A DNA stretch of 64,000 nt, from positions 2,046,001 through 2,110,000 of the forward strand of contig NZ_PJMQ01000001.1 of assembly GCF_002846335.1 (NCBI RefSeq). Reading direction: 5' to 3'. Below are positions 15,164 through 19,489 of this stretch, one piece after another. The position numbers and the translations under genes are program-made. How positions within the stretch are numbered: position 1 is the stretch's first letter; each line of letters starts with the position of its first letter. Below the pieces are notes generated by a model, which worked only from the letters and a program-made list of their open reading frames with translations, did no database searches and was not told where the DNA came from. Source of the stretch: Janthinobacterium sp. 61. GTDB lineage: Bacteria; Pseudomonadota; Gammaproteobacteria; Burkholderiales; Burkholderiaceae_D.

Positions 15164-15363
15164 AACATTATATTTGATAAATTCATTAAAATCATTACCC
15201 CACCAATAAGATCAAGCGTCGTTGCTGTAAAAAACGCTGTCACACATCGATACCGCTCTGATAACCTTGTCTTTAAGGCTTAATCAGGCTGGCAAGATTG
15301 CCTCCTGCAATAGGCAAATCTGCCACGTTCCATTGCAAAAATAAAAATATTGATTGAAAATAG

Positions 15364-15393
15364 TTAACACTTATTTGGCAAATTCGCTAGAAT
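15364..15393 (+). promoter_or_regulatory. Promoter ahead of the c-di-GMP riboswitch
   Basis: TTAACA (15364-15369), an 18-base spacer and TAGAAT (15388-15393) make a reasonable sigma-70 promoter in an AT-rich stretch. Transcription would start near 15400, leaving about 30 bases before the aptamer and a leader of roughly 195 bases before the coding start. Confidence 0.5.
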
Positions 15394-15431
15394 CGATAGC
15401 GCATCAGGGTAAGTAGCGATGTATGATCAAT

Positions 15432-15516
15432 TCTGAGGGCAAACCCGTCGAAAGACGGGGACGCAAAGCCACCGGCCTACCGCGCGCAAGCGCCACGGCA
15501 GCGGGGCTGCCAATGC
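15432..15516 (+). ncRNA. Cyclic-di-GMP-I (GEMM-I) riboswitch aptamer
   Basis: The sequence matches the GEMM-I aptamer block by block. AGGGCAAAC (about 15436-15444) is followed by a stem capped by a GAAA tetraloop (CGTCGAAAGACG), then the invariant GGGACGCAAAGCC (15458-15470), then CCGGCCTA (tetraloop receptor side) and the closing GGCAGCGGGGCTGCC. Compared with the V. cholerae Vc2 aptamer the last stem shows compensating changes, U-A pairs becoming C-G. The base I align to the ligand-discriminating position is G, which favours c-di-GMP over cGAMP. It is on the same strand as, and 80 bases before, the sedolisin gene, with a promoter just upstream. Confidence 0.93.
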
Positions 15517-15558
15517 AGGGCCGGGACCGCCAGCGCGGCACCATGCCAGGATGCATTG
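15511..15558 (+). promoter_or_regulatory. Possible expression platform of the riboswitch
   Basis: CAATGCA (15511-15517) and TGCATTG (15552-15558) are perfect complements enclosing a GC-rich segment with further pairing potential. The left arm starts at the very end of the aptamer, so forming this hairpin may compete with the closing helix. No U-run follows, so control of translation or Rho access is more likely than intrinsic termination. Whether c-di-GMP turns the gene on or off cannot be told from sequence. Confidence 0.45.
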
Positions 15559-15595
15559 TCGAGATGTGGCCCTCGCCAACTCGGAGAGTTTCGCC

Positions 15596-18214
15596 ATGAA
15601 AAAATTCAGCCCCCTGCATCCCCGTCACGGGCACCTGCTTCTGGGCGCCACTGCCGCCATCCTGCTGGGCGCTTGCGGCCCCGGCCAGGAGACATCGGCG
15701 CCGCCCGCCGTGATTGCCACGGCGGCAACCCAATTCACTGTCGAGGTACCCGTCATCCCCGCCGCCGTCGGCGCGCTGGTGGCGCAGCCGATGTTCCATG
15801 CGGCCCCCGCCCTGCTCGATGCGCCTGACGGGCGCGACAGCGCCAACAGCAGCGGCTCGGCCCACTGGCGCCCGCACATGCAGCGGGTGCCCGACGCCAT
15901 GGCGAACATCAGCACGCGCCGCCTGACGGCGCAAAAGATCGCCGCCGCGGAACAGACGGCACAGGACATCGCGCCGCTGCAAGCCGGCGGCGCGGCGGAC
16001 ACCGCCGCCCCCATGGCTGGCAGCAGCGCGGTGGCAACGTACTCTCCCGCGCAAATCCGCGCCGCCTACGACTTGCCCGCATTACCGGCAGCGGGCACGG
16101 CGCTGACGCCAAGCCAGGCAGCCCAACTGGGCGCGGGGCAAACGATCTATATCGTCGACGCCATGCACAACCCGAACGCGGCCGCAGAACTGGCCATCTT
16201 CAACCAGAAGTTCGGTTTGCCCGGCTGCACCACCAAGGCCATCGCCACCAATGCCACCCTACCCTTGCCACCAGCGCCGGCCAGCGGCTGCGAGTTTTCC
16301 GTCGTCTACAACACGCCATCGAGCACCATGACGGCCACGGCGCCCGCCTATAACTCGGGCTGGGCCATGGAAATCGCGCTCGATGTGCAGTGGGCGCATG
16401 CCACGGCGCCGCTGGCACGCATCGTGCTGATCGAGGCGCCAGACGCTTCCATCAACAGCCTGCTGGGCGCCGTGCGCCTGGCCAACCTGATGGGGCCTGG
16501 CGTCGTGTCAATGAGCTTTGGCGCCGCCGAAGGCAGCTGGACGGCTTCCGTCGACAGCGCCTTCACGGGCAAGAACATGAGCTATCTGGCCGCCACGGGC
16601 GACTCGGGCAGCGGCGTGTCCTGGCCGTCCGTGTCGCCCAACGTGCTGGCCGTGGGCGGCACCACGCTCAGCTACAGCGGCAGCGGCGTGCGCAGCGAAG
16701 CGGCCTGGTCCGGCACGGGCGGCGGCATCAGCGCCTATACGGCACTGCCCACTTACCAGACGGCCAGCGTACCCGGCCTGAACAATCTGCTACGGCGCAA
16801 CGTGGCCGACGTGGCCTTCAATGCCGACCCCGCCACTGGCCAGTACACGGCCGTGATGGCGCAGGGCAGCAGCACCGCCAGCTGGCTCAGCATCGGAGGC
16901 ACCAGCCTGTCCACCCCACAGTGGGCCGGCCTGGTCGCCATCGCCAACGCCAGCCGCGCGCTGCAGGCCAAAACGGCGCTCGGCTTGCCGCACAACATGC
17001 TGTACGGCCAGATCGCCACCGTGCCCGGCACCTTTGCCAGCAGCTTTGCCGACATCACGCGGGGCAGCAACGGTAGCTGCAGCGTTTGCACGGCCAGGAT
17101 CGGCTATGACCCGCTGGGCGGCCTGGGCACGCCGAACGTGAAAAACCTGCTGGCCAGCCTGTCGGGCACGCAGATCGCCCCCGCCGCCCCCGTGGTGGCG
17201 CCTGCCAGCATCAGCGGCGCAGCCGGCAAGCCTCTATCGTTTACCGTCTCGGCCAGCGCATCGAACCCCCTCAGCTACACCATGCTGGGCGCGCCGGCCG
17301 GCATGAGCATCGCCGCCACGGGCGTGGTCAGCTGGGCCGCCCCCATTGCGGGCAAGTATGCCGTGACCATGGTGGCGCGCGATACCGTCAGCGGCCTCAG
17401 TGGCCAGGGCGCCTACAGCATCGTCATCACCCCTGTCGCGCCGCCCGTCGTCGCCGCCGGAGCCATCACGGGCAAAGTTGGCACGGCCCTGGCATTCAAT
17501 GTCAGCGTCACGGCCGCCAATCCCGTCAGCTACGCGCTGAGCGGCGCGCCGGCCGGCATGAGCATCAGCGGCACCGGACTGGTGAGCTGGGCCACCCCCG
17601 TTGCCGGCACCTATGCCGTCACCGTGACAGCCACCGACAGCAAGACTGGCCTGAGCGGCAAGGGCATCTATACGGTAGCCATCGCCGCCCTGCTGCCACC
17701 CGTGGTGTCAGTAGCCAGCGTCAGCGGCAAGCCCGGTGTTGCCCTGTCGTTCGCCACCACGGTAGTGGCGCCCAACCCCGTCACCTACAGCCTGTCGGGC
17801 GCGCCGTCCGGCATGAGCATCAATGCCGCCGGCGTCGTCAGCTGGGCCAAGCCCGTGCTGGGCAGCTACAACGTGACCATCATCGCTAAAGATAGCAAGA
17901 CGGGCTTGAGCGGCCAGGCCGTGGCCACAGTGAAAATCGCCGCTGCCGGTCCCACGATCAGCGCCGCCGCCATGACGGGCGTGGCGGGCAAGGCCATGAG
18001 CGGCAGCATCGTGCTGACGGCACCTGGCGCGAACGCGCTGCAGGTCTCGATCAACGGCGCGCCGCTGGGCATGCAGTTTTCCATGAGCGGCCTGACCATC
18101 ACGGCCTACTGGCCGCAGCCGGTGGCCGGCAGCTATACGCTGAAGCTGGTGGCGCTGGACAATAACGGCTTGACGGCGCAACTGACCGTGCCGGTCACCG
18201 TCACGGCAAAATAA
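15596..18214 (+). CDS. Sedolisin (S53) serine-carboxyl peptidase lipoprotein with four Ig-like repeats
   Basis: I start at the ATG at 15596 (GGAG 9 bases upstream); the frame begins 15 codons earlier but that part lies in the riboswitch platform. The 872-residue product has a lipoprotein signal (ILLGAC, Cys27), so it should be membrane-anchored or surface-exposed. After a pro-region comes an S53 catalytic domain. It has Glu259 and Asp263 in MEIALDVQWAHA, Asp336 in ATGDSGSG, and the nucleophile Ser437 in GGTSLSTPQWAG. A calcium loop lies around DITRGS and GYDPLGGLGTPN. Residues about 530-872 are four Ig/cadherin-like repeats of about 84 residues sharing GAPxGMSI and VSWAxPVxGxY. S53 enzymes are acid-active endopeptidases. 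The leader carries a c-di-GMP riboswitch, linking it to the motile/sessile switch. A strong terminator follows. Confidence 0.9.
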   Translation: MKKFSPLHPRHGHLLLGATAAILLGACGPGQETSAPPAVIATAATQFTVEVPVIPAAVGALVAQPMFHAAPALLDAPDGRDSANSSGSAHWRPHMQRVPDAMANISTRRLTAQKIAAAEQTAQDIAPLQAGGAADTAAPMAGSSAVATYSPAQIRAAYDLPALPAAGTALTPSQAAQLGAGQTIYIVDAMHNPNAAAELAIFNQKFGLPGCTTKAIATNATLPLPPAPASGCEFSVVYNTPSSTMTATAPAYNSGWAMEIALDVQWAHATAPLARIVLIEAPDASINSLLGAVRLANLMGPGVVSMSFGAAEGSWTASVDSAFTGKNMSYLAATGDSGSGVSWPSVSPNVLAVGGTTLSYSGSGVRSEAAWSGTGGGISAYTALPTYQTASVPGLNNLLRRNVADVAFNADPATGQYTAVMAQGSSTASWLSIGGTSLSTPQWAGLVAIANASRALQAKTALGLPHNMLYGQIATVPGTFASSFADITRGSNGSCSVCTARIGYDPLGGLGTPNVKNLLASLSGTQIAPAAPVVAPASISGAAGKPLSFTVSASASNPLSYTMLGAPAGMSIAATGVVSWAAPIAGKYAVTMVARDTVSGLSGQGAYSIVITPVAPPVVAAGAITGKVGTALAFNVSVTAANPVSYALSGAPAGMSISGTGLVSWATPVAGTYAVTVTATDSKTGLSGKGIYTVAIAALLPPVVSVASVSGKPGVALSFATTVVAPNPVTYSLSGAPSGMSINAAGVVSWAKPVLGSYNVTIIAKDSKTGLSGQAVATVKIAAAGPTISAAAMTGVAGKAMSGSIVLTAPGANALQVSINGAPLGMQFSMSGLTITAYWPQPVAGSYTLKLVALDNNGLTAQLTVPVTVTAK
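17190..18211 (+). repeat. Four tandem Ig-like domain repeats within the S53 gene
   Basis: Units of about 250 bases begin near 17190, 17445, 17700 and 17955. The first three are most alike, sharing GGCGCGCCGGCCGGCATGAG-type cores and the GTCAGCTGGGCC run. The fourth is diverged (GMQFSMSGLT). This is the pattern of domain duplication by unequal exchange and a likely site of length variation between strains. Confidence 0.8.
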
Positions 18215-18231
18215 GCCTGCACGGCCCGCCA

Positions 18232-18273
18232 ACGGGGCGCACCGGGACACACGTCCTGGCGCGCCCCGTTTTT
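18232..18273 (+). terminator. Rho-independent terminator after the S53 protease gene
   Basis: ACGGGGCGC (18232-18240) pairs with GCGCCCCGT (18261-18269), with a second inner pairing between CCGGGAC and GTCCTGG, followed by TTTTT. It lies 18 bases after the stop. Confidence 0.85.
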
Positions 18274-18287
18274 CATGCATGCGACCG

Positions 18288-18316
18288 TTGCAAAGAATCC
18301 GGAAAAGGAGTATATA
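18288..18316 (+). promoter_or_regulatory. Promoter of the RES/Xre toxin-antitoxin operon
   Basis: TTGCAA (18288-18293), an exact 17-base spacer and TATATA (18311-18316). The AT-rich -10 region is the likely binding site for the antitoxin, since such modules are autoregulated. A GGAGG Shine-Dalgarno precedes the ATG at 18351. Confidence 0.6.
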
Positions 18317-18350
18317 TAGTCCATAAACAGAGTTCCATTGGAGGAGTGCC

Positions 18351-18788
18351 ATGAATCTCGCCTACGCCTATCCGAAAAGCCGCTTCGAGCCGGCCGTGCT
18401 TGTCGACTTGAACGCCAAAGCCGAACGCGAGCGCTTGTCGCAGGCGGCACTGAAGGGTTTTTTCAAGCTGGCCGCCGCCTGGAAGCTACGCGACGATGAT
18501 GCGCGCGAATTGCTGGGCGGCCTGTCCAGCAGCGCCTATTACGAGTGGAAGAAGCACCCGGATCGCGTGCTGGAAGTGGACCGCATCACGCGCATTTCCT
18601 ATTTGCTGGGCATCTACAAGGCCTTGCACATCCTGTACGGCGACAAGCTGGCCGACGAATGGGTGAGTTTGCCCAACAAGAACCCCATCTTCGGCGGCCG
18701 CACGCCCCTGTCGCAGATGCTGGCCGGCGGTTTGCTGGCCATGCAGACCGTGCGCAAGCTGCTCGACGCGCGCCGCGGAGGGCTGTAA
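18351..18788 (+). CDS. Xre/MbcA/ParS-type antitoxin (DUF2384)
   Basis: The product has 145 residues. The N-terminal half (about 30-95) is a helical DNA-binding region containing LSQAALKGFFKLAAAWKL and the second helix region LLGGLSSSAYYEWKK. The C-terminal half (about 96-145) is the DUF2384 toxin-binding domain with RISYLLGIYKALHILYG, W-V-LPNKNPIFGGRTPLSQML and GG-L-A. In this family the antitoxin's C-terminus plugs the RES toxin active site and its N-terminus represses the operon. The toxin gene starts with a GTG two bases after this stop, with the GGAGGG inside this gene's last codons serving as its ribosome site. Confidence 0.92.
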   Translation: MNLAYAYPKSRFEPAVLVDLNAKAERERLSQAALKGFFKLAAAWKLRDDDARELLGGLSSSAYYEWKKHPDRVLEVDRITRISYLLGIYKALHILYGDKLADEWVSLPNKNPIFGGRTPLSQMLAGGLLAMQTVRKLLDARRGGL

Positions 18789-18790
18789 TC

Positions 18791-19489
18791 GTGCCTGCCG
18801 CCGCGAATGCACACCTGCCGCCGCTGGCCGCCCTGCGCCAGATCGACACTTGCCGTTTGATACCCTCGCGCTTTGCCGACATGGAAGACTCCGTGCTGGC
18901 GCCCCTGGCCGAGGACGACGAGCACCTGCGCGAGCTGTTCGAACTCGATAACGCGACCAACGCGCGCCTGGTGGCCGAGTATGGCGGCGCGCCAGGAATT
19001 GGCGTGGACGAGCTGGTTTTTGGCGTACCGAACTTTCGCATCATCAACGCCGCCTATACCTACGCCCGCCCGGAAGGGGCGCGTTTCAACGATGGCGAGC
19101 GGGGCGCCTGGTATTGCGCCTTCGACATGCAAACGGCGCTGACCGAGATCATTTTTCATAAAACCGTGGAATACCAGGAAATCGACTATTTCGACGACAG
19201 CGTCAGCTACCAGTCGCTGCTGGCCGATTTTTCCGCCAGTTTCCACGACCTGCGCGGCCAGGAGCACTACCAGGCTTGCCTGGACCCGGCCAGCTATATC
19301 GCCTCGCAAGACCTGGCCGCCATCCTGCTCGAAGCGGGCTCCATGGGCGTGATCTTCCCCAGCGTCCGGCACGCCAGCGGCACCAACCTGGCCTGCTTCC
19401 GCCCTGCCCTGGTGGGCAATGTTCGCAAAGGCGCCGCCTATCGGTTAACATGGCAGGGTACGCCGACGCCGCGCGTGGAAGCCCTGTAA
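18791..19489 (+). CDS. RES-domain toxin (NAD+-degrading family)
   Basis: I choose the GTG at 18791, preceded by GGAGGG 8 bases upstream. This keeps the conserved N-terminal RLIPSRF intact, which an ATG at 18881 would cut off. The 232-residue product has the RES fold landmarks: an Arg in GARFNDG, aromatic WYCAFDMQTALTE with the Tyr and Glu expected in the NAD-binding pocket, and the late VIFPSVRHASGTNLACFRP with the conserved Ser. Known RES toxins deplete cellular NAD+ (MbcT, Res of P. putida). It forms a two-gene module with the upstream Xre/DUF2384 antitoxin. The toxic activity is inferred from family membership. Confidence 0.92.
   Translation: MPAAANAHLPPLAALRQIDTCRLIPSRFADMEDSVLAPLAEDDEHLRELFELDNATNARLVAEYGGAPGIGVDELVFGVPNFRIINAAYTYARPEGARFNDGERGAWYCAFDMQTALTEIIFHKTVEYQEIDYFDDSVSYQSLLADFSASFHDLRGQEHYQACLDPASYIASQDLAAILLEAGSMGVIFPSVRHASGTNLACFRPALVGNVRKGAAYRLTWQGTPTPRVEAL

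Follow-up and report, generated by a model that had tools for sequence, protein, structure and literature searches.

The DNA described here is a stretch of 64,000 nucleotides from Janthinobacterium sp. 61 (contig NZ_PJMQ01000001.1, positions 2,046,001 to 2,110,000 of the forward strand), referred to as the window; all coordinates below count from its first letter. On its plus strand a class I riboswitch aptamer for cyclic di-GMP (c-di-GMP-I, also called GEMM-I) precedes the gene for a protease of the S53 (sedolisin-kumamolisin) family. In our judgement the leader RNA rather probably controls translation of this protease, a lipoprotein-type protein with Ig-like repeats, with c-di-GMP turning it OFF. 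Comparison of the window with its relatives, in which aptamer and gene are linked and leader strands are complementary and covary, gives good support to riboswitch control of an exported protease of the sedolisin family. If true, this is a direct RNA link from c-di-GMP to exported proteolysis in Gram-negative bacteria, outside control of the LapD/LapG type. The protease would be made at low c-di-GMP and could have a role in leaving the sessile state. Degradation of matrix or host proteins may be tied to the choice between sessile and motile life, as an earlier note made from the letters of this DNA had suggested.

The riboswitch aptamer and the predicted protease gene of the window

The window belongs to a single-contig genome of 6.0 Mb. 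The earlier note had called a c-di-GMP-I riboswitch before the protease gene, and a scan with Rfam model RF01051 finds it at 15428-15514 (+) with 86.9 bits (E 8.5e-16) against a gathering score of 35. The aptamer is full length, covering model positions 1-87 of 87. It is the sole gathering-level Rfam match within the window and the sole RF01051 match in the whole 6.0 Mb genome. By this match the RNA is a c-di-GMP-I riboswitch aptamer, and it is predicted to bind the ligand. At model position 11 the aligned window aptamer has a G; this position may correspond to Vc2 G20, the mark of the c-di-GMP over the cyclic GMP-AMP (cGAMP) type. The aptamer ends 81 nucleotides (nt) before the start of the protease gene, and both are on the plus strand. 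Upstream is a promoter-like site, TTAACA-18-TAGAAT (15364-15393, +), with 10 of 12 consensus letters. This site is weak on its own, because shuffled sequences yield a mean of 0.5 such sites (standard deviation 0.8) where 1 is found on the two strands of 15200-18350. It is nevertheless largely kept in the genus: TTAACA is present in 20/22 genus leaders and a -10 element of the form TA(G/A/T)(A/T)AT in 22/22.

The gene (15596-18214, +) codes for 872 residues. The protein begins with a lipoprotein-type signal, a lipobox read by eye as LLGAC followed by G, with the cysteine at residue 27. About 120 residues without a Pfam match come next, and then the S53 catalytic domain, from which residues 145-523 (379 residues; 16028-17164, +) were used as the query in searches. 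The C-terminal part is made of four Ig-like He_PIG stretches (PF05345, E 3e-21; 17183-18211, +, limits approximate). The signal and the four repeats were both part of the earlier description, as was the catalytic set, and all are confirmed: E259, D263, D336 and S437 stand where they had been placed and are invariant across an alignment of 20 sequences. The S53 sequence profile matches solved S53 structures. For example, the E-x3-D, GDSG and GGTS stretches align with kumamolisin-As (PDB 1sio; profile, E 3.6e-29), while the match to sedolisin (PDB 1nlu) covers the later part. In contrast to those enzymes, with which it shares the catalytic Glu, Asp, Asp and Ser, the window protein has an N-terminal lipobox and four C-terminal Ig-like repeats, and no Pfam match to the pro-kumamolisin activation domain was found in its 872 residues up to an E value of 1. 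That domain is usual in the S53 family but is not its defining feature. An AlphaFold2 model of the protease had a mean predicted local distance difference test score of 60, with much of the catalytic domain below 50, and was too poor for use; a subtilisin-like fold may be expected from the profile match to solved S53 structures. The gene product is an S53-family protease by its sequence and a predicted lipoprotein, for which proteolysis and export are likewise predictions, as is the acid protease activity named in the earlier note. Its nearest relatives are found in Janthinobacterium.

Linkage of aptamer and protease among relatives

Within the genus, RF01051 is present in 27/40 genomes and a full-length orthologue of the protease in 22/40. 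The aptamer lies directly upstream in all 22 of these orthologues, and none of the 13 genomes lacking RF01051 has a full-length orthologue; one of the 13 (G013) has a match to the Ig-like part. The converse is less strict, with seven riboswitch loci (L022, L023, L025-L029) that lack an orthologue of the window protease. In the family as a whole (392 genomes), RF01051 was detected in 153 genomes and an S53 match in 77. A listed RF01051 match occurs at most 1200 nt upstream on the same strand in 54 of the 73 family S53 matches of at least 438 bits, a count that compares the S53 matches with 73 of the 150 listed family riboswitch positions. Among named genomes, 17 of the 29 S53 loci found were scanned, and RF01051 is upstream in 12 of them (9/9 and 3/8 in two sets). 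These 12 come from Janthinobacterium, Rugamonas, Curvibacter, Undibacterium, Rhodoferax and three metagenome-assembled genomes (MAGs), one each from the Oxalobacteraceae, the Rhodocyclaceae and the beta-proteobacteria.

The earlier note had held that an aptamer missing before orthologous genes, and present only here by chance, would speak against riboswitch control of the sedolisin. The pairing is kept throughout the genus and in most of the family, and the orthologues without an aptamer are found mainly in a Duganella-type group. Five Duganella S53 loci scanned have no RF01051 match, and four of them rescanned at E values up to 1 still have none. Among the 19 family exceptions, 17 belong to a single genus, g40, and their genomes have no RF01051 match at all. 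One Janthinobacterium genome (G026) lacks RF01051, yet has a distant S53 match of 33% identity. The other two family exceptions are of a different kind: one genome (G143) has an unlisted riboswitch match, and in the other (G084) the protease is on a contig other than those of the listed matches. The Duganella-type group retains the protease without the riboswitch. When 59 catalytic domains are placed on a tree, the five Duganella rows that lack the riboswitch lie on one side of one branch (100/99), so a single loss suffices to account for them; the backbone of that tree is poorly resolved, its root is arbitrary, and the remaining g40 exceptions are outside it. Judged by this distribution, the pairing of aptamer and protease is old.

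A proposed three-strand switch and its probable direction

The proposed switch uses three strands of the leader, all on the plus strand. Strand A (UGAGGGC, 15434-15440) is the 5' strand of the aptamer core. Strand B (GCCCUCG, 15569-15575) is the switch strand, which could pair either with A or with the Shine-Dalgarno (SD) region, here GGAGAG at 15583-15588 (strand C). Between aptamer and B is a helix, P4, with the 5' arm CAAUGCA (15511-15517) and the complementary 3' arm UGCAUUG (15552-15558). The 5' arm shares four positions with the end of the aptamer, where the Rfam consensus has no pairing. Without c-di-GMP, A would pair with B, which P4 would place beside it, and the ribosome site would be open. 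With c-di-GMP the aptamer would hold A, and the freed B would pair with the SD and start region, closing off translation. The start codon itself would be closed by an outer arm, GUGGC (15566-15570), pairing with GCCAU (15593-15597). The earlier note had proposed one local hairpin as the candidate expression platform; the platform is better described by this pairing of A, B and SD.

The A:B duplex is supported in S53 leaders well beyond the window. A is the 5' core strand in these leaders, and B is GCCCUCG or a variant of it just before the SD. In the best duplex B stands 6-7 nt ahead of the SD in 22/22 genus leaders, and the distance is 3-15 nt in 32/32 other S53 leaders tested. Compared with dinucleotide shuffles, the duplex reaches p <= 0.05 in 15/22 genus leaders and 21/32 others; when the aptamer 3' strand is used as A for a control, the corresponding numbers are 0/22 and 1/29. 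A swap test, in which the A strands of 39 non-redundant S53 leaders were permuted, gave an energy sum of -417.8 for each leader's own A and B, compared with -380.3 (standard deviation 5.4) for permuted pairs (p 0.00005). In that test 32 of the 39 leaders share one core; with one leader per core type (6 types), 4 of 720 exact permutations reach the observed sum. The matching strand changes can be read in individual leaders. In L137 and L149, for example, A is GAAGGC, B is GCCUUC and the SD is GGGAAG, while in L117 A is CCUGGGC, B is GUCCAGG and the SD is AAGGAC. Near-duplicates (L101, L103, L136, L139) were left out of the duplex, SD openness and P4 tests and L192 out of the openness test, with L101 alone left out of the swap and opening-energy tests. 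The leaders L088, L084, L085 (Curvibacter) and L087 (a MAG) are outside these counts, their core reading GGCACA; in 3/4 of them AGGCAC can be seen by eye to face GUGCCU upstream of the SD, and there the aptamer 3' strand also has another strong way to pair. Among S53 leaders from outside the family, A and B by eye seem paired in L198 and L224, and in L217 with a mismatch.

The P4 arms differ yet stay complementary in many diverged leaders (CAAUGC/GCAUUG, CAACG/CGUUG, CAAAUAAG/CUUAUUUG). In 19/22 genus leaders and 14/32 other S53 leaders the best P4 arms stop 9 nt short of B. The case for P4 rests on this position and on the matching changes, because shuffles give weak support at single loci (p <= 0.05 in 1/22 genus and 8/32 other S53 leaders). 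It is very improbable that the aptamer is conserved but idle, inherited beside the gene and no longer of consequence. The five Duganella loci that keep the protease without it would fit such a history, but across 22 genus species the aptamer core hardly changes, in contrast to the variable linker inside P4, and A and B co-vary across the family.

Ensemble folding suggests a direction. When B is blocked, predicted SD openness rises in 24/32 S53 leaders, and the opening energy of the ribosome-binding site (RBS) falls in 33/35 S53 leaders from outside the genus. It is the A:B duplex, the swap test and these blocking results together that lead to the model in which the ligand holds A and free B closes the SD. 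The family-wide evidence from sequence favours OFF at high c-di-GMP. A like logic, built on other strands, may apply before S8 proteases of the family and, less clearly, before metzincin-like ones. In S8 leaders A is the aptamer 3' strand (p <= 0.05 in 14/24, compared with 1/24 for the 5' strand), and blocking B raises SD openness in 21/23. In metzincin-like leaders a strong hairpin closes the SD, and blocking a motif-chosen CCUUUG strand opens it in 14/14. In the platform design proposed, one strand has two possible partners, the SD region and the aptamer, the latter at the 5' core strand for S53 and at the 3' strand for S8. The leaders with matching strand changes are concrete places to look for the switch.

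Several results count against the OFF reading. In the window, blocking B lowers SD openness from 0.41 to 0.37, the reverse of the prediction. The opening energy of the RBS rises there, being 5.5 kcal/mol with B free and 7.1 with B blocked, which is the wrong sign for OFF. In the genus, SD openness rises by more than 0.02 in 11/22 leaders only, the mean going from 0.38 to 0.43 (Wilcoxon p 0.0017), and the opening energies are barely altered. Five genus leaders folded free or with the aptamer enforced show no consistent shift at the SD. The 7 A:B pairs are present in 22/22 genus leaders with no variation, so covariation within the genus is absent because A and B are invariant there. Outside the genus, SD openness falls in 7/32 S53 leaders on blocking B, and in L125 the consensus A is a better partner than the leader's own A (shuffle p 0.74 for its own duplex). 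A:B is weak in the metzincin-like leaders, where it is significant in 0/14 (2/14 with the 3' strand). Single-locus p values are modest and the loci are related. The ensemble folds, finally, omit tertiary contacts, the ligand and co-transcriptional folding.

These window and genus results could be explained by an ON switch in Janthinobacterium, which we consider unlikely. A fourth strand, D (UCGAG, 15559-15563, +), would compete for the SD region at the level of the genus. It would pair with that region when A takes B, and with B once the aptamer has its ligand, and c-di-GMP would in this way open the ribosome site. The rise in window opening energy on blocking B, by 1.6 kcal/mol, has the sign that such a switch requires, as have rises of 1.3 to 2.1 in L004, L011 and L012, and the complementarity of D to C is kept in 19/22 genus leaders and that of D to B in 20/22. 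However, the three varying leaders (L002, L004, L024) lose D:C without compensation, the B:C hairpin is kept in 22/22, and the predicted sign is the opposite one in 33 of the 35 S53 leaders from other genera. The conserved hairpin, GUGGC...GCCAU with the inner CUC:GAG pairs, is itself invariant in the genus, so it is uninformative as covariation. OFF is most likely for the window too; it is held there because of the relatives of the window leader and not because of its own sequence.

Control by Rho-dependent or intrinsic termination in place of SD access is a less probable alternative still. The leader is GC-rich, and some S8 leaders have U-runs after B; by eye, however, those Us could find partners in the As ahead of the SD, and no terminator-like site was found on the plus strand of 15200-18350. 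The window differs in this from two leaders of the same riboswitch class. Cd1 of the Clostridioides difficile flgB operon gives a terminated transcript (PMC6366702), and Bc1 of Bacillus thuringiensis has two rho-independent terminators (PMC11218506); their targets differ from that of the window as well.

Two other elements of the leader were considered and dropped. A local SD hairpin, AACUC-GGA-GAGUU (15578-15590), was rejected as the platform because it is incompletely kept in six genus leaders (L002, L004, L005, L010, L018, L024). An upstream open reading frame (ORF) beginning at AUGCAU or AUGUGG was rejected as well, its frame differing among species.

Other targets of c-di-GMP-I leaders and known systems

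The 150 matches listed for the family include 125 from outside the genus, and the 100 best-scoring leaders of these were surveyed. The downstream gene was taken as the longest ORF with a start no more than about 900 nt away, products were clustered by BLAST, and their kinds were assigned from Pfam scans of representatives; three leaders had no ORF. In the other 97 the targets are 33 products that cluster with the S53 protein, 25 S8 subtilases (L113 and a cluster of 24), 14 metzincin-like proteins, 9 SLT transglycosylases, 3 DUF4402 proteins, 2 GGDEF/EAL proteins and 11 others. The metzincin-like call is the weaker one, since Pfam peptidase matches of two representatives are below curated cut-offs; HELGHTLGLxH occurs in 13/14 of the products. 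An exported-protease-like target (S53, S8 or metzincin-like) is therefore found in 72/97 readable family leaders. In a control of 40 leaders from 40 genomes in other families of the order, drawn from the upper part of a match list but not strictly in its order, such targets follow 7/40 (3 S53, 4 S8). The Fisher p of 9e-10 for this difference is descriptive only, because the loci are related. The same kind of sensor thus stands before several unrelated exported proteases in related bacteria and probably shuts them off at high signal. A broader proposal is tentative and could well be wrong: that one family, the Oxalobacteraceae, to which Janthinobacterium belongs, repeatedly brought unrelated exported proteases of the S53, S8 and metzincin-like kinds under OFF control by c-di-GMP-I riboswitches, with a separate three-strand platform for each. 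Together they would form a programme wired directly through RNA that sets free surface and matrix proteins as c-di-GMP drops, a counterpart to PPEP-1 of C. difficile.

PPEP-1/ZmpI (CD2830) is a secreted C. difficile protease that is negatively regulated by a class I c-di-GMP riboswitch and releases surface adhesins at low c-di-GMP (PMC6366702, PMC11477304). Placing an exported protease behind a c-di-GMP-I riboswitch is therefore an idea with a precedent. The window shares with PPEP-1 a gene for a protease, here predicted to be exported, behind a class I riboswitch, and the negative sign is the one proposed here. Unlike PPEP-1, a zinc metalloprotease from a Gram-positive organism, the window gene codes for a Gram-negative, lipoprotein-type S53 protease, and control in the window is proposed to be translational, through strand pairing with the SD region. 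The comparison suggests that lineages far apart have come to place proteases under class I riboswitches, with one and the same sign of control. The observation of the earlier note is confirmed and has a wider reach than was given there.

The earlier note had known of no described sedolisin under such control. Likewise, no S53 target was found among the matches listed from the literature naming sedolisin or S53 together with c-di-GMP riboswitches, though an earlier mention of protease targets is possible. One paper, in the text available, mentions both riboswitch and sedolisin without linking them (PMC9144310). Literature on c-di-GMP riboswitch targets gave no report of S8 or metzincin-like targets in this family among the matches listed (the best 20 of 131 and 20 of 79 in two lists), nor, among those listed, of three protease kinds as the main riboswitch targets of one family.

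Other targets are also represented. SLT lytic transglycosylase genes follow the riboswitch in L098 (the representative), L110, L121, L144, L152, L153, L174, L175 and L196, and likewise in one Janthinobacterium genome (L025). Three of the nine family SLT leaders were tested for A:B pairing, with p <= 0.05 in 1/3 for the 5' strand and 0/3 for the 3' strand; the other six had no anchor by the pattern used. Some c-di-GMP signalling genes may be under riboswitch control themselves, because aptamers precede GGDEF/EAL genes (L148, and L191 of the same cluster), a PAS/Cache sensor gene (L141) and PilZ genes (L146, L225). In the control set, 16/40 leaders (L197, L201, L205 and 13 others of L197-L236) precede one cluster, the representative of which (L197) matches DUF1631 (PF07793, E 8.6e-184), a protein of unknown function. 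Six more (L200, L203, L206, L207, L209, L227) precede a cluster of apparently exported proteins; VKWHPGHYY occurs in the products of L203, L207 and L209, and Pfam gives nothing for the representative, L203, at E values up to 0.001.

Paired aptamers about 1.4-2.3 kb apart occur in some genomes, as in L151 with L165 (G252:C15) and L161 with L171 (G257:C56). Each of these aptamers precedes its own protease gene, of the same kind within a pair (S8 or metzincin-like). G323:C8 and G182:C2 also have paired aptamers, with copies only partly retrieved. In the window, a RES-Xre toxin-antitoxin-like pair is found directly 3' of the protease gene (18351-19489, +), first an Xre/MbcA/ParS antitoxin (PF09722, PF20432) and then a RES-domain protein (PF08808).

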